A program made the position numbers and the translations under genes. The notes beneath the pieces were generated by a model that saw only the letters and a program-made list of their open reading frames with translations, was not told the origin of the DNA and did not search any database. A DNA stretch of 64,000 nt from Bacteroidaceae bacterium (GTDB taxonomy: Bacteria > Bacteroidota > Bacteroidia > Bacteroidales > Bacteroidaceae): assembly GCA_024688885.1 (NCBI GenBank), contig JAILDV010000048.1, positions 1 to 64,000 on the forward strand, in the 5' to 3' direction. How positions within the stretch are numbered: position 1 is the first letter of the stretch; every line of letters starts with the position of its first letter. Positions 601 through 54,770 of the stretch are shown piece by piece.

Positions 601-2700
601 ATGGAAATTAGTAATTTTACCATTACGAAGCGAGACGGCTCGAAAGACAGCTTCTCGTTGGACAAAATCATGAACGCGATTGTGAAGGCGTTCGAGAGTG
701 TGGACGAACCTGCTGACCTTGGCACGATTTCCAAGATCATCAGTCACCTGGACATCAAGGATGACATCAAAGTGGAGGATATTCAGAACCAGGTGGAAGA
801 GGCGTTGATGAAAGAGGGGCATTTCAAGGTGGCGAAGTCATTCATGCTGTACCGTCAGGCACACATGGAGGACCGTGAGACGTTGGCGAAGCTGCAGTTC
901 CTGAGCGACTACTGTGAGAGTGTGAATGCAGCGACCGGTTCGAAGTATGACGCCAATGCGAATGTGGAGCACAAGAACATCGCCACGCTGATTGGCGAGT
1001 TGCCCAAGTCGAACTTCATCCGTCTGAACCGCCGTCTGCTCACCGACCGCATCAAGAAGATGTATGGCAAGGAACTGGCTGACGAGTACATTGACAAGCT
1101 GACACACCACTTCATCTACAAGAATGACGAGACATCGCTGGCTAACTACTGTGCCAGCATCACGATGTATCCTTGGCTCATCGGCGGCACGTTGGCGATT
1201 GGTGGCAACTCGACTGCTCCGACGAATCTGAAGTCGTTTGCCGGCGGATTCATCAACATGGTGTTCATGGTGAGTTCGATGCTGAGCGGTGCTTGCGCCA
1301 CGCCTGAGTTCCTGATGTACATGAACTACTTCATCGGCAAGGAGTATGGCAAGGACTACTACAAGCGTGCCGACGAGCAGGCTGACATGAGTCTGAAGAA
1401 GCGCACCATCGACAAGGTCATCACGGACTACTTTGAGCAGATTGTCTATTCGCTCAATCAGCCCACGGGTGCGCGCAACTACCAGGCTGTGTTCTGGAAT
1501 GTGGCTTACTATGACAAGTATTACTTCCAGAGCATCTTCGGCGAGTTCTACTTCCCCGACGGTTCTCAGCCCGACTGGGAGGGACTCTCCTGGCTGCAGA
1601 AGCGTTTCATGAAGTGGTTCAACCGCGAGAGAACCAAGACGTTGCTGACTTTCCCCGTGGAGACCATGGCGTTGCTGACCGACGAGAATGGCGAGCCCAA
1701 GGACGAGGAGTGGGGCGACTTCACGGCTGAGATGTATGCTGAGGGTCACTCGTTCTTCACCTACATGAGCGACAACGCCGACTCGCTTTCCTCTTGCTGC
1801 CGCCTGAGGAACGAGATCACGGACAACGGCTTCTCCTACACGCTTGGTGCCGGTGGTGTTTCGACTGGTTCGAAGAGTGTGCTGACCATCAACCTGAACC
1901 GTTGCATCCAGCAGGCTGTGAACGAGAAGAAGGACTATCTGGAGGAGTTGGGCAAGGTGATAGACCTCTGCCACAAGGTGCAGTTGGCTTACAACGAGAA
2001 CCTGAAGGACTTGCAGGAGCACGGCATGCTGCCACTCTTTGATGCAGGCTACATCAACATCGGCCGTCAGTACCTGACCATCGGCATCAACGGTCTGGTG
2101 GAGGCTGCCGAGTTCATGGGCTTGAAGATTACGCCCAATCCTGAGTATCAGAAGTTTGTGCAGGGCATCCTCGGTCTCATCGAGAAGTACAACAAGCAGT
2201 ACAGGACGAAGGATGTGATGTTCAACTGCGAGATGATTCCTGCCGAGAACGTGGGCGTGAAGCATGCGAAGTGGGACCGCGAGGACGGTTACTTCGTGCC
2301 ACGCGACTGCTACAACTCCTACTTCTACGTGGTGGAGGACGACTCGCTGAGCATCATCGACAAGTTCAAACTGCATGGTGCTCCCTACATCGAGCACCTC
2401 ACGGGCGGTTCTGCACTGCACATGAACCTGGAGGAGCACCTCTCCAAGCAGCAGTATGCACAGCTGTTGAAGGTGGCTGCCCAGGAAGGTTGCAACTACT
2501 TCACGTTCAACATTCCGAACACTGTCTGCAACGACTGTGGTCACATCGACAAGCGTTACCTGCATGAGTGTCCGAAGTGCGGCAGCAAGAACATCGACTA
2601 CATGACGCGCATCATCGGTTACCTGAAGCGCGTGAGCAACTTCTCACAGCCACGTCAGGAAGAGGCTGCACGTCGATTCTATGCACACGCAAGCGCGTAA
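601..2700 (+). CDS. nrdD: Anaerobic (class III) ribonucleoside-triphosphate reductase
   Basis: Reduces ribonucleoside triphosphates to deoxyribonucleotides in the cytoplasm without oxygen, using a glycyl radical installed by NrdG. At 699 aa it has the family's usual length. An N-terminal ATP-cone (about residues 1-90, beginning MEISNFTITKRDG) is followed by the catalytic barrel. A zinc ribbon at about 643-660 has Cys pairs CNDC and CPKC. The C-terminal radical loop reads RIIGYL, making Gly673 the likely radical site. The ATG at 601 is preceded by an AT-rich leader with a promoter at 256-285. nrdG follows 130 bases downstream on the same strand, and the two are probably co-expressed. Assignment is firm. 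Confidence 0.96.
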   Translation: MEISNFTITKRDGSKDSFSLDKIMNAIVKAFESVDEPADLGTISKIISHLDIKDDIKVEDIQNQVEEALMKEGHFKVAKSFMLYRQAHMEDRETLAKLQFLSDYCESVNAATGSKYDANANVEHKNIATLIGELPKSNFIRLNRRLLTDRIKKMYGKELADEYIDKLTHHFIYKNDETSLANYCASITMYPWLIGGTLAIGGNSTAPTNLKSFAGGFINMVFMVSSMLSGACATPEFLMYMNYFIGKEYGKDYYKRADEQADMSLKKRTIDKVITDYFEQIVYSLNQPTGARNYQAVFWNVAYYDKYYFQSIFGEFYFPDGSQPDWEGLSWLQKRFMKWFNRERTKTLLTFPVETMALLTDENGEPKDEEWGDFTAEMYAEGHSFFTYMSDNADSLSSCCRLRNEITDNGFSYTLGAGGVSTGSKSVLTINLNRCIQQAVNEKKDYLEELGKVIDLCHKVQLAYNENLKDLQEHGMLPLFDAGYINIGRQYLTIGINGLVEAAEFMGLKITPNPEYQKFVQGILGLIEKYNKQYRTKDVMFNCEMIPAENVGVKHAKWDREDGYFVPRDCYNSYFYVVEDDSLSIIDKFKLHGAPYIEHLTGGSALHMNLEEHLSKQQYAQLLKVAAQEGCNYFTFNIPNTVCNDCGHIDKRYLHECPKCGSKNIDYMTRIIGYLKRVSNFSQPRQEEAARRFYAHASA

Positions 2701-8925: not shown

Positions 8926-9468
8926 TCACTCCTCATACACATAAGGGTGTGGGTCGGGTTGGAAGGTCACGGGCTTGTCCAGCACGGTGTATTTCCAGTC
9001 GTACTCAAGTTCGAAAGTGAACGTGGCAGACGTCGGGGTCATGTCGGAGAAGGAGAAGCTCATGGCGTAGGTGCCGGCGTAAGGTCCTTCTTCAAGTAGA
9101 TACTCTATCCATCCGGTGGTGTCGGGTTCGTCGTCGAAGTTGTGCCCTATCCGGAAACCTCCTGCCTCATTATATATATAATACACGTCAGGTTTGTAGT
9201 CGGGGTTCTCCTTGCAGTATTCCTCGTCATACTTCATCGCCTCGACGTAGTGGGTGGTGTCACGCAGGTCATAAATCCTCGTGCTGTCCTCATTGATCCA
9301 AATCTTGTAGATGCTCACTTCCTGACTGGCTTGCTTGGCACCCTTTTCCAAGGAGTCTGCAGCCAGGGAGTCCATATCCGTCACCGTGGCGACCTTCTTT
9401 CCATTCGCGATGCATGCCGTGACCATCATGCCAGTCACGCACATCAGTGCCCAAATAATTTTCTTCAT
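8926..9468 (-). CDS. Small lipoprotein of unknown function
   Basis: About 180 aa from the ATG at 9468 (MKKIIWALMCVTGMMVTAC), with a lipobox VTAC giving Cys19. The mature part begins with a Ser/Asp/Lys linker, then a beta-rich region ending in a C-terminal YVYEE. No known family was recognised. It is the first gene of the minus operon that runs away from the origin, and its likely promoter at 9514-9545 lies right next to the first iteron, so Rep binding might affect its expression. Confidence 0.78.
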   Translation of the reverse strand: MKKIIWALMCVTGMMVTACIANGKKVATVTDMDSLAADSLEKGAKQASQEVSIYKIWINEDSTRIYDLRDTTHYVEAMKYDEEYCKENPDYKPDVYYIYNEAGGFRIGHNFDDEPDTTGWIEYLLEEGPYAGTYAMSFSFSDMTPTSATFTFELEYDWKYTVLDKPVTFQPDPHPYVYEE

Positions 9469-9513
9469 ATTCAACAAGTTTTAATTCAATAGGTAAGGAT
9501 TGCTATTCCGCCA

Positions 9514-9545
9514 CAAAGATAACGACTTTTTCAACATCATCCAAA
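9514..9545 (-). promoter_or_regulatory. Promoter for the minus-strand operon beside the origin
   Basis: Read on the minus strand, TTTG (9545-9542) and TATCTTTG (9521-9514) are 20 bases apart. The first iteron begins 16 bases beyond the upstream box. Confidence 0.6.
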
Positions 9546-9560
9546 TGTTTTAAGAAAAAC

Positions 9561-9901
9561 GTGACAAATTCCAAAGACACTCCAAAGAAGCGTGACAGAT
9601 TCCCAACTGAAATGGAAGTGAAGAGTAGGGGAGTGAAAGGGTGAAGCGTGACAAATTCCCAACAAGGAATGAAGCGGCAGAATAGGCGAAGCGTGACAAA
9701 GACCAAACGTGTCTAACGTGCTGATTGAACGGAAGTGTGACAAATTCCCAATAAGGACTTGGGCTTTAAAATGAAACGGAAAAATGTTTAAGCAAAACCC
9801 GATATATTTTATTTCAATAGAAAGATGATTAAGAATAAATTAGCGATATTTTGCGCAAGTTTTCGCATAACAAAATGCATAAAAGTGTGACAAATTCCCA
9901 A
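9561..9901 (+). repeat. Iteron cluster 1 (six direct copies)
   Basis: Copies start at 9561, 9592, 9648, 9693, 9737 and 9887. Four carry the long form ending in TCCCAA or TCCAAA; the 9592 copy reads GTGACAGATTCCCAA and the 9693 copy GTGACAAAGACCAAA. Spacings are irregular (31, 56, 45, 44, 150). Confidence 0.85.
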
Positions 9902-9908
9902 TACGTTT

Positions 9909-10112
9909 TTGTCACGATGAAAAGCATGTTTGAGCGACAGGGAAGGGCAGGAAAGGCGGGTGGGGGACACTCCATGGTAGAGAGGGGCTAACTGACTCAA
10001 AAACAAAGGTAAAAGTGGAAAGCCAAGGAGGGCTCATAATACAAGTTTGTCACGCAAAAACCGCCTTTTCTGACACGGATTTGTCACGCACTTTTAACCC
10101 GTTTCTGTCACG
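9909..10112 (-). repeat. Inverted iteron cores (four copies)
   Basis: TTGTCAC or CTGTCAC, the reverse complement of the iteron core, occurs at 9909-9915, 10047-10053, 10081-10087 and 10105-10111. Three of them lie within 70 bp. None keeps the CCCAA tail. In known iteron plasmids such inverted half-sites serve initiator dimers; that role here is inference. Confidence 0.7.
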
Positions 10113-10203
10113 CTTCTGGTGCTCATGTTTAAAGAACTTGCATTAAGTGTATGAAAAATAATTGGTTAGACGGATTGTTTGCATCATCATCCAGAGAAAA
10201 AGT

Positions 10204-10323
10204 GTGACAAATTCCCAACACAATCTGCCGCACAAAGGACGGAAAGAAGGGCTGGAAAAAACGTGACAAATACCAAAGAAGCATTGAAAACGAGTGCTTT
10301 AGGATAGTGTGACAAATTCCCAA
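10204..10323 (+). repeat. Iteron cluster 2 (three direct copies)
   Basis: Copies at 10204-10218 and 10309-10323 match GTGACAAATTCCCAA exactly; the copy at 10263-10277 is GTGACAAATACCAAA. The cluster directly precedes the AT-rich block. Confidence 0.85.
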
Positions 10324-10460
10324 CTATATATAAATAGGTATAGAAAGATAACATCCATTTCTTAAAGATGAGAAAGAAAGATCTTTCTTTTTAAATAAAA
10401 ATAAACAAATATATTATATATAGAGTGTCGCAACTGATTGAAAAACAAATAAATGAATAA
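10319..10460. other. AT-rich block, candidate DNA unwinding element
   Basis: About 140 bp of nearly pure A/T (TATATATAAATAGG, then AAATAAAAATAAACAAAT and ATTATATATA) between iteron clusters 2 and 3. Its position inside the iteron array fits the duplex unwinding element of an iteron origin. Confidence 0.6.
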
Positions 10461-10467
10461 CGAAAAC

Positions 10468-10610
10468 GTGACAAAAGGCAAACAAGACAGTGACAAATCC
10501 CCATTGAAAGCGGGACAAAAAGCAAAGATAAATGACTGATAATGTGACAAATACCAAAGACATGAGGGGTAGCGGGACAAAAACCCAACAAAAACGTGAC
10601 AAATTCCAAA
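10468..10610 (+). repeat. Iteron cluster 3 (six direct copies, several divergent)
   Basis: Copies begin at 10468 (GTGACAAAAGGCAAA), 10490 (GTGACAAATCCCCA), 10512 (GGGACAAAAAGCAAA), 10544 (GTGACAAATACCAAA), 10574 (GGGACAAAAACCCAA) and 10596 (GTGACAAATTCCAAA). Spacings of 22, 22, 32, 30 and 22 are tighter than in cluster 1 and close to whole helical turns. Confidence 0.8.
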
Positions 10611-10728
10611 TGGAAGTGTTTCCCCTGCCGACATTGAGAGGTACACCCTTCCTTAAGCCCGATGCATTCCCATGTTGTAACTCGACGCATAAGCATCTGA
10701 AGGAGGGTGTTGCTCTCGCTGACCCACA

Positions 10729-10826
10729 TTTGTCACGAAGAAGGGGGCAGACAGCACTATTTTATCAAGAAAAAAGAGAGAAAATCAAGAAAAATCTTTG
10801 AGAGAAAAAAAAACTTTGTATCTTTG
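10729..10826 (+). promoter_or_regulatory. rep promoter with adjacent inverted iteron core
   Basis: TTTG at 10797-10800 and TATCTTTG at 10819-10826 are 18 bases apart, with the rep ATG at 10858. An inverted core TTTGTCACG at 10729-10737 lies about 60 bp upstream, suited to autoregulation by Rep dimers, which is inferred from other Rep_3 systems. Confidence 0.65.
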
Positions 10827-10857
10827 CAATGTTTTCATTAAAGACCAACCAAAACCA

Positions 10858-12438
10858 ATGAAAGAAGAAACAGAACGGAAACCCGAAGAAGGCAAGAAGG
10901 TGGGAACGGCTGCCGCGCAGAAAACGAAGAAGGCGCAGGACGAGACCATCATGAAGAACCTTCCCCAGAACGTGGAGTGGATCAAGCAGCCCTATGCGCT
11001 GTCGGTCATGCGCGGTGACCTCTCGCTGACGCAGACTCACATCATGGTGGAGCTGATGGGTGCGCTGCAGGTGAAGATCAACGACTTCATCGCCCACATG
11101 GGTGAGGAGGGCAATGCCGTCTTCAAGGAGGAGGACTTCAACGAGAACGGCGTGGCGCATGTGGACGTGAACCTCGCCGCCGTCTCCAACCGCCCCGACT
11201 ACTATGCCGACGTGGAGTCGATGGCTTACCGTCTGATGGGTGCCACCATCAAGCGTCCCGAGGAGGTGGAGGGCATGAAGATGATGAAGCTCTCCCACGT
11301 GTTCGACTCCATCAGCGTGCCCTTCGAGGACAATGAGCGCGGACGCCGCAAGGGGTTCATTCGTTTCTACTTCAACCGTGAGCAGGCGAAGGAAATCTTC
11401 AACTTCACGCGTTACAGCAAATACATCAAGGCGGTGGCGCGCAACTCCTCGAGCCAGTACACCAGCCGTCTCTATATGATCATCACTGCCTACAAGGCAT
11501 TCGGCCGCTGGGAAGTGGACTACAGTGAGCTGCGCAAGATTCTCGGTTTCCTTGCCTACGAGGAGGACGAGAACGGCCAGTGGCGGTGGGTGGAGAAGAA
11601 ATACACGGAGTACCGCCAGTTCAAGCGCCGTGTGCTCAACACCGCCGCCGACGAACTGCGCGACCTGGCAGACAAGGGCGAGGCGGACTGCTACTTCGAC
11701 TTTCAGGAGGTCTATCCTGCCGGAAAGAAGAAGGGCACTCCCGAGAAGATACTCTTCACCATCACCGTCAGCGACCTGGGCAAGGAGCAGAACCATTCGG
11801 CTTCTTTTGCAAAAAAGTTGATAATGGTCGAAGACTTCCTGAAGCAGGACTTCGGTTTCCGCACGTCCGAAATCCGTCAGATGTTGCCGCGCATCAACGA
11901 CGACAATATCGACGTATTCATCGCCAAGATGACGGAGGTGAAGAAGTACATCGACAAGGAAGGTGACAAAATTCTTGACAAGAAGAAGTATGCTTTCACC
12001 GCTCTCCGCAATGTCATCGACGACTTTGAGGATGCCATTGCCGAGGAGGTGCTGGAGGCATATCCAATGTATGCGCAAGAGGACACGGGGATGTATGATG
12101 TGCAAAAATCTTTACAGGAAAAGCATCAGGACGGAGGTGGCAGCACGTCAAAGACGAACGGAAAGAAAGAGGGGGAACGCTCTCCATGGGACGGCATGTC
12201 CTTCACCGACGCTCCTTTCCGCGACGCCCTCACGGCTGCGTTCGGCGCACGCATCTTCACGATGTACCTGATGCAGATCCGTATCATCTCCTACCGTCAG
12301 GAAACGGTGGCGCTGCTCATCCCGCATGAGGAGGTGAGCGACTACATCGACTCGAACAACCTCATCACCCAGTTGAAGGAATGTCTGTCGGGCATCATGG
12401 GCAAGGTGCAGACGGTGAACTACCTGGTGGGGATGTGA
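10858..12438 (+). CDS. Replication initiator protein, Rep_3 (RepB/RepE) family
   Basis: Binds iterons and opens the origin. About 526 aa from the ATG at 10858; the frame extends to 10798 but that start lies inside the promoter. The core fits Rep_3: an N-terminal winged helix (from about 45, MRGDLSLTQTHIMVELMG), then YTSRLYMIITAYKAFGRW with SELRKILGF (about 200-225) and YRQFKRRVLNTAADEL (about 252-267), the usual second winged-helix marks. A Lys/Glu/Ala-rich N-terminal stretch precedes it. A C-terminal extension of roughly 200 aa makes it clearly longer than typical plasmid initiators (250-400 aa). It directly follows the iteron array. Family assignment is firm; the replicon type is inferred. 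Confidence 0.9.
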   Translation: MKEETERKPEEGKKVGTAAAQKTKKAQDETIMKNLPQNVEWIKQPYALSVMRGDLSLTQTHIMVELMGALQVKINDFIAHMGEEGNAVFKEEDFNENGVAHVDVNLAAVSNRPDYYADVESMAYRLMGATIKRPEEVEGMKMMKLSHVFDSISVPFEDNERGRRKGFIRFYFNREQAKEIFNFTRYSKYIKAVARNSSSQYTSRLYMIITAYKAFGRWEVDYSELRKILGFLAYEEDENGQWRWVEKKYTEYRQFKRRVLNTAADELRDLADKGEADCYFDFQEVYPAGKKKGTPEKILFTITVSDLGKEQNHSASFAKKLIMVEDFLKQDFGFRTSEIRQMLPRINDDNIDVFIAKMTEVKKYIDKEGDKILDKKKYAFTALRNVIDDFEDAIAEEVLEAYPMYAQEDTGMYDVQKSLQEKHQDGGGSTSKTNGKKEGERSPWDGMSFTDAPFRDALTAAFGARIFTMYLMQIRIISYRQETVALLIPHEEVSDYIDSNNLITQLKECLSGIMGKVQTVNYLVGM

Positions 12439-12439
12439 G

Positions 12440-12625
12440 GAGTTAGGAGTTAAAGGAGTTAACGACGATACCCATTCAATGAAAATTAGGAATGAGGAAT
12501 TAGGAATTAGGAATTGCCATGCGGGGTGTAAGAATAGCGTCAGCCTAATTGTCAACTGTCAACTGTCAATTGTCAACTCAGCGTAGCGCTCACTTCGGTA
12601 ACTTCATTAACTTCAATTATTCAAA
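12440..12625. repeat. Composite short tandem repeat junction
   Basis: After the rep stop come GAGTTAGGAGTTAAAGGAGTTA units, then AATTAGGAATGAGGAATTAGG, the module TTGCCATGCGGGGTG...GCGTCAGCC, then TTGTCAACTGTCAACTGTCAA units, and AGCGTAGCGCTCAC. It is the longest assembly of the junction repeat family in the window. Confidence 0.7.
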
Positions 12626-12666
12626 ACTTGCAAAACTCATATACATTAATAAATAAAAGGGCAAAA

Positions 12667-13389
12667 ATGAAAAAACTATTCTATTTGATGTGCTTGGCAC
12701 CCCTGGCACTGACAGGGTGCAAGAATGTGCCGCGCATCACCGATGTGATGGACGGTCCAGGCATGGTGAACGAGCAGTTCATGTCGTTGGACAAGATTGA
12801 AAGTGAATGGAAGAGTGCGGACATCCCCGTGCAGAATGGCAGCGAGTGTCCCAGTGTCGTAGACCTGCTGACGGCATTCAACGAGCGTTTCCCGAGTTTT
12901 GGGGTGGATTCGTTGTTGAGAAAGCTCAACGAACCTGACTTCAAAGACGAATACTATGCCGAGGACGGCACGGGCACCATCCAGCATTTCCCTTCGAAGG
13001 AATATGTGCTGCTGTCCAGCGAGACTGATGCCGAGAGTGTGGAGGCGCGTGTCATGCGCCGCGAAAACGGTCACAGTCTGTTCGTGCTCGAGATGTCCAA
13101 ACCCACCGATCCGGTTGTTGACTGCTATGCCTTCTACGACTATGACCCTCAGACCAAGACGCTGACACCCGAGGATGAACCTTGGAAGAAGGTCTCGCCT
13201 GCAATGGAAGGCAACACGCTCATTCCTTCGTGCAATCTTTTCGACGGTGTGTTTCTGATGGGCGAGTTCACTCCCGACGACTCCATTTTTGAAAACCCCA
13301 TCTATTGCCACACGTTTGAGTTCGACGGACAGGACATCGTCTATACCGGCTATCAAGCCAACATCCCTGAAGATGAAGAAGGGGAGTAA
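12667..13389 (+). CDS. Lipoprotein of unknown function
   Basis: About 240 aa from the ATG at 12667, where the signal peptide MKKLFYLMCLAPLALTGC places the lipid Cys at residue 18. The frame upstream to 12628 lacks signal-peptide character. The mature chain is acidic and ends EDEEGE. No family was recognised. It lies 228 bases after rep and 38 bases before another lipoprotein gene, with which it probably forms an operon. Confidence 0.78.
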   Translation: MKKLFYLMCLAPLALTGCKNVPRITDVMDGPGMVNEQFMSLDKIESEWKSADIPVQNGSECPSVVDLLTAFNERFPSFGVDSLLRKLNEPDFKDEYYAEDGTGTIQHFPSKEYVLLSSETDAESVEARVMRRENGHSLFVLEMSKPTDPVVDCYAFYDYDPQTKTLTPEDEPWKKVSPAMEGNTLIPSCNLFDGVFLMGEFTPDDSIFENPIYCHTFEFDGQDIVYTGYQANIPEDEEGE

Positions 13390-13427
13390 ACTAACAAAAC
13401 CTCAATCAATATTTAAACGATATCATC

Positions 13428-14168
13428 ATGAAACAGATTTTCTTGACTTTGTCTGCAGCACTCATGCTGACGGGGTGCAACGGAACCTTCAATGCAAAGG
13501 GTGATGCAGCAGCGTCCGACAGCGACAGCATCGTAAATGCGGCGGACTCTCTCTTGGAACAGGGCTTTGAAGAGGGCGAGGCTGACGGCACCGAGGCACA
13601 GGGGCTCAGCATTTACGACCAGCAGGATTTCGACGACCTCAGCGCACTGCCGTCCAGTGCCGTGGAGCAGGACCGCGTGTTCAACCATGTGCTCTATGTC
13701 AACGAAGAGACGGAGCCCAGCGAGGACGACCCTGCAGGGCTTTACACCGTGTGGGTGGTTGACGAACGATGGGATCAGCTGCGGAGAGTCCTCACCACCA
13801 ATCCCACGGCAGCACCTGCATGGGACCAGATGCAGGGGAAGAATGCCAACGGCGTGGAAGTGCCCATCCATCTGGTGGCTGTGGCATCCTCTGCCCAGTA
13901 TGCATCGTCGGACTACAGGAAGATTGTCGTGGAGGGTTGTCCTGACGGACGCAACACGTGGACTTACATCATCGACCTCGTTGACCGCACTGCCATCCAG
14001 CTGCCGTCCACCGAGGGAGTGCAGGAGATTGACATGGACAAGGACGAGATCATCGCCGCTTCCTACGGCTATTACCCAGCCCCCGACTACGGACGCTACA
14101 CCGTCAACAAGGCTTATTCGCTCGAGGGCAAGTTCCTGAGGCAAGTGGGAGAGCCCCAGCCCGAGTGA
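13428..14168 (+). CDS. Lipoprotein of unknown function
   Basis: 246 aa with lipobox LTGC (Cys17 in MKQIFLTLSAALMLTGC). A Ser/Asp/Ala linker (DAAASDSDSIVNAADS) resembles that of the lipoprotein at 8926-9468. The mature part is acidic with alternating polar and aromatic residues and a Tyr/Pro-rich stretch (YGYYPAPDYGRYTV) near the C-terminus. No family was recognised. It is second in a two-gene unit and is followed by a hairpin terminator. Confidence 0.78.
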   Translation: MKQIFLTLSAALMLTGCNGTFNAKGDAAASDSDSIVNAADSLLEQGFEEGEADGTEAQGLSIYDQQDFDDLSALPSSAVEQDRVFNHVLYVNEETEPSEDDPAGLYTVWVVDERWDQLRRVLTTNPTAAPAWDQMQGKNANGVEVPIHLVAVASSAQYASSDYRKIVVEGCPDGRNTWTYIIDLVDRTAIQLPSTEGVQEIDMDKDEIIAASYGYYPAPDYGRYTVNKAYSLEGKFLRQVGEPQPE

Positions 14169-14204
14169 TGCGGGCTGCATGGTTCGAAGTAAGTTGGAAG
14201 TTTC

Positions 14205-14240
14205 ATGACGGCAAGTCTCCTATGGGTGACTTGCCGTCAT
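14205..14240 (+). terminator. Hairpin terminator after the lipoprotein pair
   Basis: Perfect 13-bp stem ATGACGGCAAGTC (14205-14217) with GACTTGCCGTCAT (14228-14240). The T-run is displaced (TTCTTTTTTTT from 14254), so termination may be partial. Confidence 0.6.
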
Positions 14241-14261
14241 TGCAAAATAAATGTTCTTTTT

Positions 14262-14293
14262 TTTGGAGGAATGAAACAATTGTTGTACCTTTG
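14262..14293 (+). promoter_or_regulatory. Promoter for the metalloprotease-SusCD genes
   Basis: TTTG at 14262-14265 and TACCTTTG at 14286-14293 are 20 bases apart, 22 bases before the ATG at 14316. Confidence 0.7.
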
Positions 14294-14315
14294 CCGAAAT
14301 ATAATACATGATTAA

Positions 14316-16928
14316 ATGAAAAACAAACATATAACGTTGAGACGGATATCGACCTTTGTGTTGATGATGGCAATGCTGATAAGCAATGCTGATGCCTCCG
14401 CAAGCGCAATGCTGAGGGGAAAGAAATCCAAGAAGAACAAGACTGAGGCGGCGCCTCCACCTTCACGCTACAAGACTTTGACAGGACGTGATTCCGTGCA
14501 GATGCAGGGCGTGATGAACGTCATTGAGAAGGGCGACACCATCTATCTTGAATTGCCTGTGAAGTTGTTGGGCAAACCTTTCCTTGTGTCGAACAAGTTA
14601 CAGCAGGTACCCTCTGAACTCAACGAGTCAGCCGCGAACAAGGGTGTGAACTACGAGAACCAGATGGTGCGTTTCGAATGGGACAAGAAGGCGAAGCTCG
14701 TCAGGATGCGTCAGCAGCGTGTCACCCCCGAGGCTCCAGAAGGTTCCTTCCTGGCACAGTCGGTGGCAGACAACTATGTCGACCCCGTTATTGCCAACTT
14801 CAAGGTCGAAGCTGTGGCAGACGATTCCACATCGGTCATCTTCAAGGTCAATGATCTCTTCAATGGCAGGAAGAACGTGCTCAATGACGTGTTCAACGAA
14901 ATCAATATTGGCACCTCGCCCGTCTCCGACCTCTCCCGCATCGTGTCGGTGAAGAGTTACGAGCGCAGTGTGGTGGCTCTCTCCGAACTCACCACCACCG
15001 TGCATGAAGGCAATTCGAAGGTGAACTTGACTGTTGTGGTCAGCACCGCCATCATGCTGCTGCCCGACGAGCCGATGCGTACCCGTCGTGAAGACTGGCG
15101 TGTGGGCTACTTCTCCACACCTGCCCTCATCTATGGTGACCGTCAACAGAAGGTGGAACACGCCAACTACATCACCCGTTGGCGGCTGGTGCCCAGCGAC
15201 ACCTTAGCCTACATGCGTGGAGAATTGGTGGAGCCAGTGCAACCCATCACGTTCTACATCGGTGGTGCTGTTCCCACCCATTTGCGTCCTTATATCACAC
15301 AAGGCATTCTCGACTGGAACAAAGCCTTCGAACGGGCTGGGTTCAAAGATGCCGTGCGTGTCATCGTGCCTGACGACACCCTTGATGTGGAAGGTGACGA
15401 TATGCGTTACTCTGTCCTCACCTATGCTGCCTCCGAGAAGGCAAATGCCATGGGTCCTGCCACTCTTGACCCTCGTACGGGCGAGATTCTGGAAGCGGAC
15501 ATCATTTGGTGGCACAACGTGCAGTCACTCATCAGCGAATGGATTCGTGTGCAGACATCTGCCACCGACCCACGTGCCCGTACCCTCACCTTGCCTGACG
15601 AACTCATCGGCGATGCCGTCCGTTTCGTTGCCTGCCATGAGGTGGGACATTCACTTGGGCTCCGCCATAACATGATTGCTTCGGCAGCCTATTCCACCGA
15701 CTCGCTTCGTTCCGCCACCTTCACCAGCAGGGTGGGGGGCACATCGGCGAGCATCATGGACTATGCCCGTTTCAACTATATCGCCCAGCCTGGCGACGGC
15801 GTGAAAGTCATGTCGCCCAACATCGGTCCCTATGACCTGATGGCAATCGAGTGGGGCTATCGTTGGTTCCCTGCAGGCACCGACGAGAAGAAGGAACTGG
15901 CAGCTTTCCTTGCCCGTCATAAAGGGAAGGAATACCGTTACAGCGAGACACAGGACAGGCGCACTGCCATCGACCCACGAGCTCTCTCTGAAGACCTTGG
16001 CGACGATCCTATCCGTTCAGCCACCCTCGGCATCGAGAATCTCAAGCGTGTCATGCCCAATGTCGTGAACTGGACACGCAACGGTGACCCCGACCAGACT
16101 TACGACAAGGCAGCCGACCTCTACAGCGCTGTCATTTACCAATGGAGCCTGTACCTCTATCATGTCCTTGCCAATGTCGGTGGCATCTACATGGATCGTC
16201 CTGTGTTGGGTGAAACTGTCAGTTCTTCCAACCTTCCTGCAGCCTACACCCATGTGGAGAAAGCTCGCCAGAAGGCATCCGTGCAGTTCCTCCTCGACAA
16301 CGTGCTCAGTTATCAGGAGTGGCTTTTCGGCTCGCCCATCTCCAAGGTGGTCTATCCTTTGCGCAACACCCCCAACGGCACCACCGAACAGGAACCTGCC
16401 CTGCTTTTGAAGAATCAGCAGAACTACATCTTGTGGGATCTCCTCGCTAACGAGCGTCTGGTGCGTATGTATCAGAATGAGTGGGAGAATGGCGACCGTG
16501 CCTTCACTGCTGTGGAGATGATGGACATGGTGCATCAGTCCCTCTTCCGCAAGACTATTGCTGGGCAGAAACTCAACGTCATGGAGCGCAGTCTGCAGAA
16601 GAGTCTGCTCGATGCCCTCATTACTGCGGCAGCCGAGAGCGAAGGCGTGAAGATTAACAAGAGTCTGACAGACAGAAATTCCGCATCCTCTGACTATTTC
16701 GGATGTTACGGAGAATCCGATTCTCTCGATTCCTCCGCACCTCGCACACTGGAGCTCACCATGAAGCAAGTGTCGCGTACTTCCGACGCCATCAGTCTGA
16801 AGCGTGGCGAACTGCTCCGCATCCTCCGTCTCTGCAAGAGCAAGGCAAGCACGGGTGACACAGCCACACAGATGCACTACGATGACATGGCGTTGCGCAT
16901 CCAGACGGCGCTGGGACTGAACAAATAA
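14316..16928 (+). CDS. Exported zinc-dependent metalloprotease (DUF4953/DUF5117/DUF5118 family)
   Basis: 870 aa with an N-terminal hydrophobic signal segment. The zincin signature HEVGHSLGLRHN sits at about residues 441-452, with Glu as the catalytic base and the extended HExxHxxGxxH ligands of metzincin-like enzymes; a Met-containing SIMDYARFNY follows, as expected of a Met-turn. The long N-terminal part (about 50-330) is the DUF5118/DUF5117 region and the C-terminus the DUF4953 region. It likely cleaves proteins or peptides in the periplasm or at the surface. SusC and SusD genes follow 95 bases downstream on the same strand, so it may process nutrients for that transporter. Substrate is unknown. 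Confidence 0.9.
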   Translation: MKNKHITLRRISTFVLMMAMLISNADASASAMLRGKKSKKNKTEAAPPPSRYKTLTGRDSVQMQGVMNVIEKGDTIYLELPVKLLGKPFLVSNKLQQVPSELNESAANKGVNYENQMVRFEWDKKAKLVRMRQQRVTPEAPEGSFLAQSVADNYVDPVIANFKVEAVADDSTSVIFKVNDLFNGRKNVLNDVFNEINIGTSPVSDLSRIVSVKSYERSVVALSELTTTVHEGNSKVNLTVVVSTAIMLLPDEPMRTRREDWRVGYFSTPALIYGDRQQKVEHANYITRWRLVPSDTLAYMRGELVEPVQPITFYIGGAVPTHLRPYITQGILDWNKAFERAGFKDAVRVIVPDDTLDVEGDDMRYSVLTYAASEKANAMGPATLDPRTGEILEADIIWWHNVQSLISEWIRVQTSATDPRARTLTLPDELIGDAVRFVACHEVGHSLGLRHNMIASAAYSTDSLRSATFTSRVGGTSASIMDYARFNYIAQPGDGVKVMSPNIGPYDLMAIEWGYRWFPAGTDEKKELAAFLARHKGKEYRYSETQDRRTAIDPRALSEDLGDDPIRSATLGIENLKRVMPNVVNWTRNGDPDQTYDKAADLYSAVIYQWSLYLYHVLANVGGIYMDRPVLGETVSSSNLPAAYTHVEKARQKASVQFLLDNVLSYQEWLFGSPISKVVYPLRNTPNGTTEQEPALLLKNQQNYILWDLLANERLVRMYQNEWENGDRAFTAVEMMDMVHQSLFRKTIAGQKLNVMERSLQKSLLDALITAAAESEGVKINKSLTDRNSASSDYFGCYGESDSLDSSAPRTLELTMKQVSRTSDAISLKRGELLRILRLCKSKASTGDTATQMHYDDMALRIQTALGLNK

Positions 16929-17023
16929 AAAAAGAAGCCATGCGGGGAGAAAGAATGATTGGAAGAGTGGTAGAAATGAAAGAGAGAGAAGGGGGATGAT
17001 AGTATATAATAAAGTATAATAAG

Positions 17024-20000
17024 ATGAATATGAAAAGACTTTTGATGCTCTTGTTGATGGTGCCTTTTGCCATCCTTTCGATGGTGGCACAGGAGCGTAC
17101 CATCACAGGCACCGTGATGGACGGTGAGTTCAAGGGAGAACCACTTATCGGTGCAAACATCACCGTGGGTGAAGGCACCTCCAAAGGCACTGTGACCGAC
17201 ATGAACGGCCATTTCACCCTCACCGTCCTTGCCTCCATCAAGAAGATAACCGTCAGTTATATGGGTTATGAACCCAAGACCATCGCCTTGAAGCCCAATC
17301 AGGACAAGTATGACGTGACGTTGTATGCTGCCTCCAAGGGTCTCGGCGAGGTCGTTGTCACGGGTTATCAGCAGATTGACCGCCGCAAACTCACCGCCGC
17401 CGTTTCCGAAGTGAAGATTAGCGACGAGACGGTCGGTGCCATCAAGAACATCGACCAGGCACTGGCAGGTCAGGTGGCAGGTCTTTCTTCCGTATCTACC
17501 ACAGGTGCACCGGGTGCACCAGCCAAGATACGCATTCGTGGAACCGCCTCCATCAATGGCGTGCAGGAACCCCTCTGGGTGCTCGACGGCATTCCGATGG
17601 AGGGCAATGAGATTCCTGCCATCGAAAATCTCAATGACATAGACGACATCTATCAGACCAGCATCGCAGGTCTCAATCCGGCTGACATCGACAACATCAC
17701 CGTGCTGAAGGATGCCGCCGCCACTGCCATCTATGGTGCGCGTGCCGCCAACGGTGTCATAGTCATCACCACCAAGAAGGGAAAGATAGGACGACCCGTC
17801 GTGAACTTCTCTGCCAAATTCACCTACAGCCCCCGCACCAGCATCGACCGTCTCCATCTGCTCAATGCCAATGAGAAGGTCGATCTTGAGCTTGGACTTT
17901 TGCACAGCGGTTATAACTACCGTGAACATAAGGGTGAAGTGGCGAACATCCTCGACGAACTGGGCGAGTTCAACACCTACAAGACAGGCGGTTGGGATGC
18001 TCTCTCTGCACAAGCTCAGCAGCGCATCAACCGTCTCCGCACCATCAAAACCGACTGGAACGACATACTCTTCCGCAATGTTTTCAATCAGGAGTACAAC
18101 GCCAGTGTGAGCGGTGGCAGCGACAATGCCCACTACTATGTGTCGGCAGGTTACTACGACGAGCAGGGCAACGTGAAGGGAGTGAAGAACAACCGTTTCA
18201 ACATCACCCTGAAGACCGACTTCCGCCTGAACAAGATGCTGAAGATTGGTGCCAGCCTTTTCGCTAACCAGCGCAAGCAGAACAGTTACATGACCGACAC
18301 GGGCGGCTTCACCAATCCCGTCTATTACTCGCGCATGGCAAATCCTTACTTTGAGCCCTACGACGATGAAGGTCATTACAACTATGATGTAAATGTACAA
18401 GGTCGTGAGAATGAAGCACCTGACTTCAATATATTCGAGGAACGCTATAACACTTCCAAGCAGCGAAAAGACCGTTCCGTCATGGCGATATTTGATGCTG
18501 AACTCAAGTTCAACCAGCACTTGAAACTCACCTCCCAATACGGTCTGCAGCACGACAACTACACGTTGACACGCTATGCAGGCAACGACTCCTATGCCAT
18601 GCGCAAGGCAAAGGCATACGCCACCTACATGATTGACGGTGAGCGCAAGACCATCTTCCCCGAAGGTGGCATGAACAAGAACACCGAAGGGCACACCGAC
18701 CAGTGGACATGGAAGGCGATGCTTGAATGGAACCAGCGCTTTGCCGAGAAACATGATGTGGAACTGATGGGCGGTACAGAGGTGCGCCATGTGGAATCCA
18801 AGTTCCTCACCTCCACGGCTTACGGCTACGATGCCCGCACCCTCACCACGCAGCCCGTCCTCTTCCCCACGGAAAGCATCGGACAGCGTTATCCACTCTA
18901 TGAAGAGGCACATCAGGAGAACGCTTATGTGTCTTGGTTTGCTACTGGTTCCTATACCTACAACCACCGCTACACGCTCGGCAGCTCCGTTCGTTTCGAC
19001 GGCAGTGACGTGTTCGGTGTGGCAAAGAAATACCGTTACCTGCCCCTCTATTCCTTCAGTGGACTCTGGAGAGTAGGGGAGGAGAAGTTCATGGAAAATG
19101 CCAAGTGGCTCGACGAACTCAATCTCCGTGCCTCTTACGGTTTGCAAGGCAACATCGACAAGAACACCTCGCCCTATCTCATCGGCACGTTCAACCGCAC
19201 CACCGTCTTGCCGGGCACCGTTGAGACCGTCATCTCGGCAGAGACAGCGCCTAACCCCAACCTCAAGTGGGAAAAGACCAAGAACGTGAACGTGGGACTG
19301 GACATGGCGTTCCTCCACAATCGCATCCGATTCACCGTCGATTACTACTACCGACGTTCCACCGACCTCATCTCCTCACGGCAGCTGCCTCTTGAGACAG
19401 GCTTTGCCATGACCACTATCAACTGGGCATCGATGGAGAATACAGGTTGGGAATTTGCTCTCAACACGAGCAATATTTCCACCAAAAACTTCACTTGGAC
19501 GACCAGCCTGAACTTGGGTCTTAATAAGAACAAGATTCTCAACGAGACGGTGGCGGAAAACTCCACCTATCCCGGACGTGAAGGTCATCCTGTGGGTGCC
19601 ATCTTCGCTTACAAGACTGCAGGCATCGATGCCGACGGCTACCCGCTCTTCCGTGCCAAGGACGGCACCGTGCAGAGTGCCGAGGAGTTCTTCCAGCTCA
19701 ACCGCTTCGGAGCCTCCACTCTCACCGCCGAACAGCAGCGCGACCTCTACACCTACATCGGCACAGACGAACCGAAGGTCAGCGGCGGCTTCATCAACAA
19801 CTTTGAATATAAAGACTGGCAACTCTCCCTCAACTTCATGTTCAATCTCGGCATGAAGGTGCGCGTGCAGCCCAACTACTCACCCACCTATTATGACCGA
19901 GGGCTCAACACGAATCAGGAGATACTGAGCCGTTTCGGTGGACCGAATGGCAATGACGGGCAGTCTGCGGCTTATCCCGCACTCCTCGCCTCCACGCCCG

Positions 20001-20293
20001 AGCGAGCTTCTGCCTACACCCATTTCTCTGAGTACCAGACTTTCTCCATGCTCGATGTGTGGGTGCGCAACCGCAACTACTGCCGCCTGCAGTCCATCCG
20101 CCTCGGCTACCGCATCCCCAAGAAGGTGCTCCAGCCTGTCGGCATCACCTCTGCCAGCGTCTCCCTCGAAGGGCGCAACCTCATCGTCTGCGGCAGCAGC
20201 TACCGCAACTATCTCGACCCCGAGACGATGGGCAACCCCTACGCACAACCAGTGCCCAAGAGCATCATCTTCGGCGTGAACGTGAACTTCTAA
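17024..20293 (+). CDS. SusC/RagA-family TonB-dependent outer membrane transporter
   Basis: 1089 aa. Signal peptide (MKRLLMLLLMVPFAILSMVAQ; ATG 17024 or the second ATG at 17030), a carboxypeptidase-like regulatory domain (about 25-100, TITGTVMDGEFKGEPLIGAN), then the plug with VVVTGYQ, the family signature PLWVLDGIPMEGN and ITVLKDAAATAIYGARAANG, and a 22-strand barrel ending VNVNF. Imports large ligands with SusD as lid, powered by TonB-ExbBD. The partner SusD lies 52 bases downstream. The neighbouring protease hints at a peptide or protein ligand; no glycoside hydrolase is present, so a glycan substrate is not supported here. Confidence 0.95.
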   Translation: MNMKRLLMLLLMVPFAILSMVAQERTITGTVMDGEFKGEPLIGANITVGEGTSKGTVTDMNGHFTLTVLASIKKITVSYMGYEPKTIALKPNQDKYDVTLYAASKGLGEVVVTGYQQIDRRKLTAAVSEVKISDETVGAIKNIDQALAGQVAGLSSVSTTGAPGAPAKIRIRGTASINGVQEPLWVLDGIPMEGNEIPAIENLNDIDDIYQTSIAGLNPADIDNITVLKDAAATAIYGARAANGVIVITTKKGKIGRPVVNFSAKFTYSPRTSIDRLHLLNANEKVDLELGLLHSGYNYREHKGEVANILDELGEFNTYKTGGWDALSAQAQQRINRLRTIKTDWNDILFRNVFNQEYNASVSGGSDNAHYYVSAGYYDEQGNVKGVKNNRFNITLKTDFRLNKMLKIGASLFANQRKQNSYMTDTGGFTNPVYYSRMANPYFEPYDDEGHYNYDVNVQGRENEAPDFNIFEERYNTSKQRKDRSVMAIFDAELKFNQHLKLTSQYGLQHDNYTLTRYAGNDSYAMRKAKAYATYMIDGERKTIFPEGGMNKNTEGHTDQWTWKAMLEWNQRFAEKHDVELMGGTEVRHVESKFLTSTAYGYDARTLTTQPVLFPTESIGQRYPLYEEAHQENAYVSWFATGSYTYNHRYTLGSSVRFDGSDVFGVAKKYRYLPLYSFSGLWRVGEEKFMENAKWLDELNLRASYGLQGNIDKNTSPYLIGTFNRTTVLPGTVETVISAETAPNPNLKWEKTKNVNVGLDMAFLHNRIRFTVDYYYRRSTDLISSRQLPLETGFAMTTINWASMENTGWEFALNTSNISTKNFTWTTSLNLGLNKNKILNETVAENSTYPGREGHPVGAIFAYKTAGIDADGYPLFRAKDGTVQSAEEFFQLNRFGASTLTAEQQRDLYTYIGTDEPKVSGGFINNFEYKDWQLSLNFMFNLGMKVRVQPNYSPTYYDRGLNTNQEILSRFGGPNGNDGQSAAYPALLASTPERASAYTHFSEYQTFSMLDVWVRNRNYCRLQSIRLGYRIPKKVLQPVGITSASVSLEGRNLIVCGSSYRNYLDPETMGNPYAQPVPKSIIFGVNVNF

Positions 20294-20345
20294 TAACAAC
20301 ATAGAAATTCTAGACAAACCTGGAAAATCCTATAACAACTAAAAG

Positions 20346-21713
20346 ATGAAAAGAAACACCCTCATATTAGCCCTCGTAGCATTGGCAGTTCTCCTTCTGT
20401 CCTCCTGCGACGACTTTCTCGACATCACCCCCACAGGCAAGGTTATAGCCGAGACAGGGGAGGAGTACCGTGCCTTGCTGACCAACGAGTACAAGTATTT
20501 CTCCAAAGACCGCTACTTGACCACCGTGCGCACCGATGAAATGCTGATGGACAAGAAGAAGACCTCCTCCACCGACCTCGATGCCTACCTGGATCTCTGG
20601 AGGTGGAAGGACGAGAACCCTTCGCCCACTACCAGCTACTTCATGTGGCGCAACTACTACCATACCATCTACATCGCCAACTACGTCATCGAGCACCGTG
20701 ACGAAATCACCCACGCCACGCGCGACGAGGTGAACCAGCTCGTGGGCGAAAGCTACATGCTCCGTGCCTACAGTCATTTCCTGCTCGTCAGTCTTTTTGC
20801 CGAGCCTTACACCCACTGTCAGCCAGCCGCCACACGCGGAGTGCCCATGCAGTTGGAGGCTGATGTCAATGCCATACCAGCCAGCAGCAGTGTGGAAACC
20901 GTCTATCAGCAGGTGCTCAGCGATGTTGCCGAGGCAGAGAAACTCCTGACTGTGGAGAAATGGGAAGAAGGCAAGAACTACCGCTTCAACAAGATTTCTG
21001 CACAGGCACTCCGCGCCCGTACTTATTTATATATGGGCGAATGGCAGAAAGCCCTCATGGCTGCCAAGGCGGTCATGGAGGCACACGGCGAGCTGGAGGA
21101 CATGAACACCTCCAAGACACTGCCCAACAGTTACAAGTCTGTGGAGAGCATCGTGGCATTGGAGAAGTTCAGCAGCAACCTCTTCACCGTCATCAACCTG
21201 CCCAACCCCGACTTCATCAACCTCTACCGCACAGGCGACCAGCGCCGCACGAAGTTCTACAAGCGCGTCACCTCCTCCTCCTACGACCTGTCGAAGGGTG
21301 GGGACGACGAGTTCTCTTGTTCCTTCCGCAGTGCTGAAGCTTACCTCACGGCTGCTGAGTGTGCCGCCCGTCTGGGCAACACTGCCGATGCCATCGACTA
21401 CCTCAAGCCGTTGCTGCAGAAGCGTCTTAACGCCGATGCCTTCACCACTGCTTCCGACCTCATGGCAGACATGACGCAGGAGGAACTGACACAGGAAATC
21501 CTCGACGAGCGTGCCCGCGAACTCGCTTTCGAGGGACACCGCTGGTACGACCTTCGCCGCACCACACAACCAGCCCTCACCCGCACCTACGACGACGAGA
21601 CCTTCACCCTCACCCCCGAGAAGTACACCATGCGCTTCCCCACCGAGGCAGTGGAGTCCAACCCCGAAATTGAGAGATGGGAAGAAGGTAGCGCTTCGCT
21701 AAATGATAAATGA
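20346..21713 (+). CDS. SusD/RagB-family surface lipoprotein
   Basis: 455 aa. Lipobox LSSC puts the lipid on Cys21, followed by DDFLDITPTGK, acidic residues typical of the Bacteroidota surface-export signal and the common SusD start. The TPR-like helical body includes RAYSHFLLVSLFAEPY, and the C-terminal RARELAFEGHRWYDLRR is diagnostic. It caps the SusC barrel. The last residues (about GSASLNDK) are encoded by the junction repeat GCGCTTCGCTAAATGATAAA, so the C-terminus appears to have been rewritten by repeat DNA. Confidence 0.93.
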   Translation: MKRNTLILALVALAVLLLSSCDDFLDITPTGKVIAETGEEYRALLTNEYKYFSKDRYLTTVRTDEMLMDKKKTSSTDLDAYLDLWRWKDENPSPTTSYFMWRNYYHTIYIANYVIEHRDEITHATRDEVNQLVGESYMLRAYSHFLLVSLFAEPYTHCQPAATRGVPMQLEADVNAIPASSSVETVYQQVLSDVAEAEKLLTVEKWEEGKNYRFNKISAQALRARTYLYMGEWQKALMAAKAVMEAHGELEDMNTSKTLPNSYKSVESIVALEKFSSNLFTVINLPNPDFINLYRTGDQRRTKFYKRVTSSSYDLSKGGDDEFSCSFRSAEAYLTAAECAARLGNTADAIDYLKPLLQKRLNADAFTTASDLMADMTQEELTQEILDERARELAFEGHRWYDLRRTTQPALTRTYDDETFTLTPEKYTMRFPTEAVESNPEIERWEEGSASLNDK

Positions 21714-52457: not shown

Positions 52458-53603
52458 TCAGCGGGAATTTCTTTTCGAAGACTTTTTTGCCAGCAACTCC
52501 CGGAAGAGTTGCATCCACCTTTGTGCAATATCCTCAATCCTGTACTTCTCCGATTCTTTGAGTCCAGCCTGCCCCATCTGTTTGCGGAGCGGTTCGTCTT
52601 CGATGAGTTGGCACACACGCTCGGCAAAAGTCTCCTCGTCGCCCACCGCCACGAGGTAACCTGTCCGCCCATCTTCGATGAGATCTCTCGGTCCTGTGGG
52701 GCACATGTAGGAAACGGCTGGAATGCCTACCGACATGCCCTCAATCAACACCAAGGGCAATCCTTCATGCTTGGAGGATAGCAGATACATGGATGCCTGG
52801 CTCATCTTTTTCAGCGGCTCAGCAGTGTAGCCCATCAGACAGACTTTCCCTTCCAGCCCAGACTCCTCAATCTGTTGGCGCAAGGCAGCCTCCAACTCTC
52901 CCTTTCCCCATATCTCCAGCCGCCAGTCGGGATGCTTCTCTGCCACCCTGCCCCAGATGCGGATGAGGGAAGAAAAATCTTTCAGGGGTACCAAACGCCC
53001 CATAGTTATGGCAGTCTTGTTTTCGCAGGTGGATTTCTCCTCGCACACCGACGTGATGGGGTTGGGCATCACCAAGACATTCTTCCAGCCCTTCCAGTTT
53101 CGTTCCTTGTCTTCCTCGGTCAAAATCACGATGTGGTCATAACCTTTTATCTTCCAGTGATAATCGTACATCTCGCCCATCCATGCCAATAAATTCCCTT
53201 TCAGACTCGTGTTGTCTTTTCTGCGATAGTTTTTCTCAAAATGCACTTCGCGAATCAGCACGGGTTTTGAGACCAGTTTCAACGAAGGAATCACTCCTTT
53301 CTCATACTGCCCCATGGCAATGACAACATCAGGCTTAATTTCGTTCAGCACTTTCTCCAAGCGTTGCTTATACAAGCGCAATTTCTGAAAAAGTGCCAAA
53401 GTCCCCTGCATGGTGAAATAGTTCACACCCAAGTCCACCAGATGCACACCCTGCAGGGGGATGACTGGGTCATGAGGGGCATCGCTCACAGCAATCCACA
53501 CCTCGTTGTCTGGCATCTTCGCCAAAGCATTCGCCTTGACAATGGTGACAATCTCTGTGCCTCCCATCAGGCAAACAGAATTGATACAATAAACTATTCT
53601 CAT
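52458..53603 (-). CDS. Glycosyltransferase family 4 (GT-B), copy 1
   Basis: About 381 aa from the ATG at 53603. That start matches the homologue at 54864-56027 (RIVYCINSV versus NIVYCIDAV), and a TAACTTTG promoter box at 53634-53627 (minus) lies between this ATG and the longer frame's start. GT-B fold with GTEIVTIVKANALA N-terminally and the donor-binding SKHEGLPLVLIEGMSVGIP (about 290-308) C-terminally. It transfers a sugar from a nucleotide sugar to a surface glycan. It is the distal member of a duplicated GT4+GT2 set. Confidence 0.88.
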   Translation of the reverse strand: MRIVYCINSVCLMGGTEIVTIVKANALAKMPDNEVWIAVSDAPHDPVIPLQGVHLVDLGVNYFTMQGTLALFQKLRLYKQRLEKVLNEIKPDVVIAMGQYEKGVIPSLKLVSKPVLIREVHFEKNYRRKDNTSLKGNLLAWMGEMYDYHWKIKGYDHIVILTEEDKERNWKGWKNVLVMPNPITSVCEEKSTCENKTAITMGRLVPLKDFSSLIRIWGRVAEKHPDWRLEIWGKGELEAALRQQIEESGLEGKVCLMGYTAEPLKKMSQASMYLLSSKHEGLPLVLIEGMSVGIPAVSYMCPTGPRDLIEDGRTGYLVAVGDEETFAERVCQLIEDEPLRKQMGQAGLKESEKYRIEDIAQRWMQLFRELLAKKSSKRNSR

Positions 53604-53703
53604 CTCCGAATACAAATTTTGTTCCACAAAGTTAAAACCTTTCTGCGGAATCAAGCAAGAAAAGGAAATACTTTTTTGCAAAAATCATGCCGGGCAAAGA
53701 GAA

Positions 53704-54738: not shown

Positions 54739-54770
54739 GTGACTATTCTTTGTCTTTTTTTAAGAATGTA

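Follow-up and report, generated by a model that had tools for sequence, protein, structure and literature searches.

A two-module iteron array as the probable replication origin of an nrdD-bearing, most likely extrachromosomal replicon in an uncultured rumen Prevotella relative

The window, by which we mean the whole stretch of DNA that was analysed, comprises bases 1–64,000 (64,000 nucleotides) of the 65,252-base contig C17 from the genome of an uncultured rumen Prevotella relative (3.03 Mb in 68 contigs, 98% complete). It contains an array of repeats built on the core GTGACAAA, followed downstream by the gene of a Rep_3-type initiator, together with a partition gene and the gene of a class III ribonucleotide reductase (RNR). 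The features are listed below, with direct and inverted copies placed by the first base of their core.

9561–9751, plus strand: module A, cluster 1, five direct iterons (9561, 9592, 9648, 9693, 9737), with counterparts in relatives
9752–9886: AT block 1, 72% AT, between two direct iterons 150 bases apart
9887–9915: dyad of a direct (9887) and an inverted (9908) core facing each other, 21 bases start to start
10046–10111, minus strand: three inverted copies (10046, 10080, 10104), 34 and 24 bases apart, the first 138 bases past the inverted core of the dyad
10204–10323, plus strand: module A, cluster 2, direct iterons at 10204, 10263 and 10309
10324–10466: AT block 2, 143 bases, 79% AT, the proposed unwinding element
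10468–10610, plus strand: module B, cluster 3, six tight direct iterons 22–32 bases apart (10468, 10490, 10512, 10544, 10574, 10596), the proposed site of initiator action
10729–10736, minus strand: single inverted copy at −130 from rep, the proposed rep operator
10797–10826, plus strand: candidate rep promoter, TTTG-N18-TATCTTTG
10858–12438, plus strand: rep, encoding a 526-residue Rep_3-type initiator
12190–12435, plus strand: predicted DnaA-domain-I/DciA-like C-terminal domain of Rep, residues 445–526 approximately
57419–58270, plus strand: gene of a ParA-type partition ATPase (AAA_31)
601–2700, plus strand: nrdD, class III RNR, the sole NRDD match found in the genome
2831–3313, plus strand: probable nrdG activase gene, with a 4Fe-4S Fer4_12 match and named by its position

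A preliminary description of the locus had proposed about 15 direct copies in three clusters, and a recount of the positions bears this out, with 15 direct copies on the plus strand, 12 of them exact 8-mers and three with one mismatch. The tight spacing of 22–32 bases given for cluster 3 was measured as 22, 22, 32, 30 and 22, and the AT block of about 140 bp between clusters 2 and 3 is also present; that description named one such block, and the array holds a second, AT block 1, stretches of which are conserved in relatives. The five inverted cores are there as counted, the one at 10104 with one mismatch, but the statement that they carry only TTGTCAC does not hold, since by eye they have a common flank, GTGACAAAnnnG(T/G)(A/G)T(T/C) on their own strand, as against TTCCCAA at the direct copies. 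The GTGACAAAnnnG-type flank was also seen by eye at many inverted copies of relatives. The full array of 15 direct and five inverted GTGACAAA-type repeats spans positions 9561–10736.

The array is far above chance. The exact 8-mer occurs 16 times on the two strands of positions 9546–10857 and four times in the remaining 63,941 bases of the contig. Over 500 shuffles that preserved dinucleotides, the segment averaged 0.096 occurrences and never had more than 3. The pattern GTGACAAATTCCCAA, allowing up to two mismatches, occurs 20 times in the 3.03-Mb genome, 11 of these in the array segment, and all eight genomic occurrences with 0 or 1 mismatch fall there; its backwards control pattern occurs once in the genome. 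No tRNA genes were found, and other kinds of element were considered and rejected: there is no Rfam match at gathering level for a structured RNA, and no match in the phage collection for a phage origin. No DnaA box was found within 9546–10857 at up to one mismatch, and an exact box occurs in only one of the nine regions compared (G041).

These nine regions comprise our own, those of seven further genomes of the same genus (g1) and that of RUG112, whose Rep orthologues are 73–96% identical to ours by tblastn. The same kind of array precedes rep in all eight orthologues, with 12–18 exact copies each, counted within 2.5 kb 5′ of rep (1.5 kb in G009). Its internal distances are also kept. The two iterons bounding AT block 1 lie 150 bases apart in G029, G032, G041 and RUG112 as well, and 151 in G009, while the facing dyad of 21 bases is found in 7/9 regions, the exceptions being G009 and G007, the latter with 185 bases read as N. 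The inverted copies follow at spacings of 138, 34 and 24 bases in G029 and G015; in our contig and RUG112 the 138 and 34 bases separate exact copies, with our third copy, 24 bases on, carrying one mismatch; G002 has 138, 23 and 24, and the sums of the spacings are preserved in G032 and G041. The last inverted copy stands at −130 or −131 from rep in six of the nine regions, and in G029 and G041 the DNA between module B and this copy is hundreds of bases longer. The remaining regions have it at −147 (G002), at −220 (G009) or not nearby (G007), and these are regions in which either the start of rep is harder to place or the copy is displaced. The motif ATCTTTG of the candidate rep promoter, which we take to be a promoter from its likeness to the Bacteroidota promoter pattern, is conserved in eight aligned regions.

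In G015, an insert with a 262-codon open frame comes between module A and a unit made up of AT block 2, rep and the module B that lies between them. This insertion, together with the fixed spacings and the −130 copy, leads us to a two-module reading, in which that unit would be the minimal origin, module A would have a regulatory function and be separable from it, and the operator of rep would be the −130 copy. The layered control suggested earlier fits this layout, the 21-base dyad and the −130 copy, and the further idea of strong, weak and dimer sites is a use to which the copies may be put. The figure of 3–7 iterons for a typical plasmid origin, against which the array was set in the preliminary description, is that description's own.

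The large array is not a universal trait of the family. We surveyed 23 regions at more distant Reps, comparing the best 9-mer family in each with 12 shuffles, and seven were clearly above the shuffles (E2-28, G010, G026, G008, G016, G044 and G021) and three borderline (G019, G145 and G400), whereas 13 had no 9-mer excess (P. nigrescens, G424, G084, G326, G346, G414, G267, pBF9343, G001, G035, G024, G182 and G087).

The initiator itself matches Rep3_C above the Pfam cut-off (24.4 bits versus 21.1) and Rep3_N just below it (21.2 versus 22.4); its best relative of solved structure is the R6K pi protein (E 0.0093), and it is about 27% identical to Reps of Bacteroides plasmids. It is also long. Reps of the Bacteroides plasmid type have open frames of about 386 codons, and their matches stop near query residue 397. 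By open frames rather than genes, all 21 g1 matches have 491–600 codons, and frames of at least 490 codons are found, partly by eye, for 10/11 matches in g9 and only 3/62 in g5 (the genus including P. nigrescens, G301), g3 and g12 together, some of these 62 being fragments.

For the last 85 residues of Rep, the predicted fold resembles that of two helicase-recruiting modules, DnaA domain I and DciA. When the C-terminal part alone was modelled with five orthologues, AlphaFold2 returned a pLDDT of 89.5 and a pTM of 0.78 (four of five models at pLDDT 88–90, one at 52), with the predicted order helix-helix-strand-strand-helix-helix-strand; the full-length model (pLDDT 57.5, pTM 0.33) is too poor for use, and shows the same C-terminal elements. 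In a Foldseek search of 350,542 PDB chains with the C-terminal model, the first six rows were all entries of DnaA domain I or DciA, namely 4tps (B. subtilis DnaA domain I, two chains, TM 0.62–0.70, the others of the six being lower), 7ykm (DciA), 2e0g (the N-terminal domain of E. coli DnaA) and 8a3v (V. cholerae DnaB–DciA complex, two chains of 148–149 residues, TM 0.31–0.47, presumably DciA). Further DnaA N-terminal domains, 2wp0 (two chains) and 2jmp, came at ranks 11, 21 and 42. The best E was 3.4e-3, and none of the 350,542 chains matched with E <0.001.

The Pfam family DnaA_N (PF11638) scores 11.3 bits on our domain (E 0.28), below its cut-off of 24.6, and gives such sub-threshold matches in two of five Rep fragments, ours and that of G024 (E 0.18), whose Reps are 24% identical overall; the G024 fragment matches NAD_synthase slightly better (E 0.096). 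With hhalign, a combined profile compared with Bacteroidota DnaA reached 79.8% and a score of 32.35, as against at most 20.95 for decoys, and three separate profiles reached 24%, 29% and 4%. With each of the four profiles the real score stayed above all 150 column-shuffled decoys, by a thin margin for two of them (24.14 versus 22.16 and 18.41 versus 17.87). Sliding windows are the better control, since column-shuffled decoys lose the order of secondary structure. In these the score peaks at the first domain of DnaA for all three profiles tried, the margin being smaller for our own type (23.7 versus 20.3), and in the reverse test it peaks at the Rep C-terminus (23.5 versus at most 11.5 elsewhere).

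DciA is a helicase loader. DnaA domain I serves dimerization and contacts DnaB and DiaA, according to the available part of PMC10797057, and from these roles in helicase contact we propose that Rep itself may bring the helicase. The predicted fold and the lack of a DnaA box in the segment suggest that initiation may proceed without DnaA bound at the array. Alternatively, the site could be an ordinary iteron origin, in which the KH-like C-terminal fold has another job, such as dimerization or single-strand binding, and host DnaA is brought in through protein contact, as happens in other iteron plasmids. The DnaA_N score below the Pfam cut-off and the modest Foldseek E are compatible with this, as is the dimerization that DnaA domain I itself mediates (PMC10797057, same part). 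However, the Foldseek list is headed exclusively by entries of DnaA domain I and DciA, the segment has no DnaA box, and the long Reps run throughout g1 and g9, so that we consider the ordinary origin a serious but somewhat unlikely alternative to a helicase-recruiting Rep. Among the open-access matches listed, as far as their titles and abstract openings go, there is no fusion of Rep_3 with DnaA domain I.

The contig is most likely an extrachromosomal circle. In two relatives, G032 and RUG112, its right end is joined to its left end. The contig of G032 has an exact 99-base overlap at its ends and ours is collinear across the join (our 59.9 kb, then about 4 kb, then our 0.1 kb), which makes the G032 contig a circle close to 54.4 kb in length. 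In RUG112, a match to our 61.5–63.3 kb is followed by about 25 kb absent from our contig and then by a match to our 1–26.7 kb. This additional stretch of the RUG112 contig (L186, G428:C93) holds a 3,635-codon open frame at 9233–20137. The ParA-type gene would supply a plasmid-type partition function beside rep and the iterons, and none of 40 proteins scanned with Pfam matched conjugation or relaxase families. The replicon also carries a SusC/SusD-like pair, scanned with NCBIfam only and outside that set of 40, and three glycosyltransferase genes (window positions 17024–21713 and 52458–56027).

The contig could instead belong to the main chromosome, with rep and its iterons as the remnant of an integrated plasmid or a silent second origin. 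Our contig has no terminal overlap and a weak GC skew, and Rep does occur on a 3.1-Mb contig in G389 and, together with NrdD and dnaA, on one of 3.3 Mb in G412. Against such a placement stand the G032 circle with which our contig is collinear, the bridging of our contig's ends in RUG112, and the intact and conserved state of iterons and rep, and with the genomic distribution of NrdD described below we find it quite improbable. An extrachromosomal circle is by size not a chromid here: at 65 kb assembled, or about 2% of the genome, and 54.4 kb in the relative, it lies below 0.1 Mb and below 5% of the genome, the limits quoted for large plasmids in the accessible portion of PMC12456017. Its GC content is 49.8%, compared with 47.5% in 12 pieces (61,930 bases) of other contigs, with values between 39 and 56%.

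GC skew gives mixed support to the array as the origin. On the G032 circle only 2 of 218 start points do better than the array, and none of 2000 block shuffles reaches the observed skew range, whereas on our contig 20 of 262 start points do better and the range barely exceeds the shuffles (5%). In G041, a possibly unclosed contig with 10,709 N, 225 of 255 start points beat the array, and on the 568-kb replicon of P. nigrescens, where Rep is at 473 kb, the skew is lowest at 180 kb and highest near 424 kb. We therefore set GC skew aside as a general origin test, as it performs well in the G032 circle alone and is weak or contrary elsewhere. The missing skew minimum at our array, and a number of sites (about 20) that would exceed the needs of initiation, could be taken to mean that the repeats serve chiefly in incompatibility or partition, with the origin elsewhere on the replicon. 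This is very unlikely in view of the rep gene, AT blocks and tight iterons that adjoin one another, and of the G032 skew contrast, which is near its best at the array. It is very probable that the array works as the origin of a replicon. The iteron origin put forward in the preliminary description is well supported by comparison (rep downstream, arrays in 8/8 orthologues, a circular relative, a ParA gene), and its interpretation as a whole is upheld in part.

The nrdD gene is the only NRDD (PF13597) match in our genome of 68 contigs, and exactly one such match, always on the Rep contig, is found in each of G000, G029, G032 and G041. In a search that covered RNR large subunits, the class I/II family (PF02867) had no match in the 45 g1 genomes, compared with 11 of 14 control genomes. 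If the sole RNR found lies on the replicon, the cell could not lose that replicon, which would account for its elaborate copy control. Among the open-access matches listed, titles and abstract openings include no sole RNR on a Bacteroidota plasmid.

Within g1, a profile search finds Rep in 20 of the 45 genomes, including the weak addition G013. Of the 19 Rep-bearing genomes known before this addition, eight have NrdD on the Rep contig; among these, the NrdD match of G010 is truncated where its contig stops, and G035 carries a further NrdD on a different contig. Ten have the two genes on different contigs, their Rep contigs being at most 45 kb, and in G016, where NrdD has no match, the contig bearing Rep is 135 kb long. 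In G036 (98% complete, no Rep match), nrdDG lie beside a block that in our genome is located on another contig, C36. Given these 8/19, the case of G036 and the 13/45 genomes without NrdD, location of nrdD on the Rep replicon was rejected as a rule for g1. NrdD is absent from 13/45 bins as against 1/45 for dnaA (p 7.6e-4), and from four versus none of the 14 best bins (p 0.10). Loss of a separate replicon in binning would produce such a shortfall, as would other causes. For the chromosomal placement considered above, the position of nrdDG in G036 is a point in favour and this deficit relative to dnaA a point against.

Some observations on individual genomes may be added. Between nrdD and the nrdG match of G036 (L189, 13462–13514) lies a stretch of about 53 bases, a dispersed repeat that matches dozens of places across our genome at 83–98% identity. 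In G015, contig C27 carries both a Rep of the same type as ours (L058, 5546–7198) and an NrdD of a different type (G015:C27:11647–13512), which scores 653.9 bits to PF13597 versus 343.4 for our type and resembles the NrdD of G276 and G284; judged from sequence, this suggests that the RNR was replaced on the same kind of replicon. Two Bac_DnaA_C matches each occur in G043 (C29:6235–6441 and C37:29925–30104, the latter below the family cut-off) and in G039 (both above it).

The link to nrdD could also be incidental, with another RNR hidden in an assembly gap or of a type outside PF13597 and PF02867. A draft of 68 contigs at 98% completeness and a search of large subunits leave room for this, and 13/45 g1 genomes have neither NrdD nor PF02867. 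The uniform lack of PF02867 in g1, compared with its presence in 11/14 controls, and the single NRDD match on the Rep contig in four genomes argue against it, and we hold an incidental link to be unlikely.

In the plasmids R6K and F, the Rep gene lies past direct repeats and AT-rich DNA, and a DnaA box is common, though not universal, in the origins of model iteron plasmids. The present locus differs from R6K, F and the pBF9343 type in having about 20 sites in two modules and two site classes, no DnaA box in the segment, and an additional C-terminal DnaA-I/DciA-like domain. In common with R6K and F (Rep_3, pi/RepE-type), it has a Rep gene of the winged-helix kind preceded by direct repeats and an AT-rich stretch, as described in the available part of PMC10797057. 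A likeness also exists to V. cholerae ori2, which has minimal and separable regulatory parts, several classes of initiator site and autorepression by RctB, the last of which may apply here (PMC6090056, in the portion at hand). This likeness is one of origin layout; in contrast to our segment ori2 has a DnaA box, again from that portion of PMC6090056, and our replicon is far smaller than chromosome 2. The predicted fold of the Rep C-terminus is that of DciA and DnaA domain I, here fused behind a plasmid-type winged-helix initiator.

The second chromosomes of P. intermedia and P. nigrescens likewise carry a Rep_3-type gene. For P. intermedia, the accessible text of PMC4755523 reports a Rep_3-superfamily protein, no iteron-like repeats near it and an origin that is unknown. 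We compared 16 Rep-bearing g5 genomes, chosen for being in 2–6 contigs, and in 11 of them Rep and NrdD lie on one contig without dnaA (the exceptions are G208, G311, G382, G412 and G421). These second replicons differ from ours in that their Reps match at about 24–29% identity and mostly in shorter frames, that the seven upstream regions surveyed on g5 second replicons, other than that of G400, have no clear iterons, and that 14/16 of the genomes also have a class I/II RNR, versus 0/45 in g1. On the 568-kb replicon of P. nigrescens (L146), Cas2 and a type II Cas9 are encoded at 9217–14112, about 6 kb from the Rep gene. The megaplasmid of relapsing-fever Borrelia differs in being linear, in its replication system and in carrying an RNR of class Ib. 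It is similar to our replicon in having RNR genes, nrdF/E/I, in a plasmid region with partition genes (PMC10580987, as far as the available part goes). Chromids, including that of Prevotella fusca, are discussed in PMC12456017, where the word "ribonucleotide" is absent from the main text as far as it was accessible.

Drawing on the repeats, their conservation and spacings, the gene content, the predicted fold and the circular map of the relatives, we propose the following mechanism. Rep, made from the gene at 10858, would bind the direct iterons through its winged helices, and at module B would melt AT block 2. Its C-terminal DnaA-domain-I/DciA-like part would then recruit the replicative helicase, so that DnaA need not bind the origin. 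Module A may titrate or pair Rep as a separable control part, and at the single inverted copy at −130 Rep may repress its own promoter. That positions 9561–10857 are the origin of a circular extrachromosomal replicon of at least 65 kb, working in this manner, is in our judgement probable.

Relative to known Rep_3 iteron origins, the extra domain of the initiator and the cargo suggest novelty. We put forward, more tentatively and with the balance tilted somewhat against it, that an initiator made independent of DnaA by acquiring a DnaA-domain-I/DciA-like module for helicase recruitment, and the capture of the sole RNR, made a plasmid of about 55–100 kb indispensable, in which case the replicon would control the dNTP supply that the cell needs for all of its replication. 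The origin described here is defined and conserved, and the part of its initiator that may bind the helicase could be removed. For the second chromosomes of Prevotella, as presented in the accessible text of PMC4755523, the locus offers the same broad protein family with a readable origin. It could serve as a test case for helicase loading by plasmid initiators in the absence of DnaA, and for how small plasmids turn indispensable.
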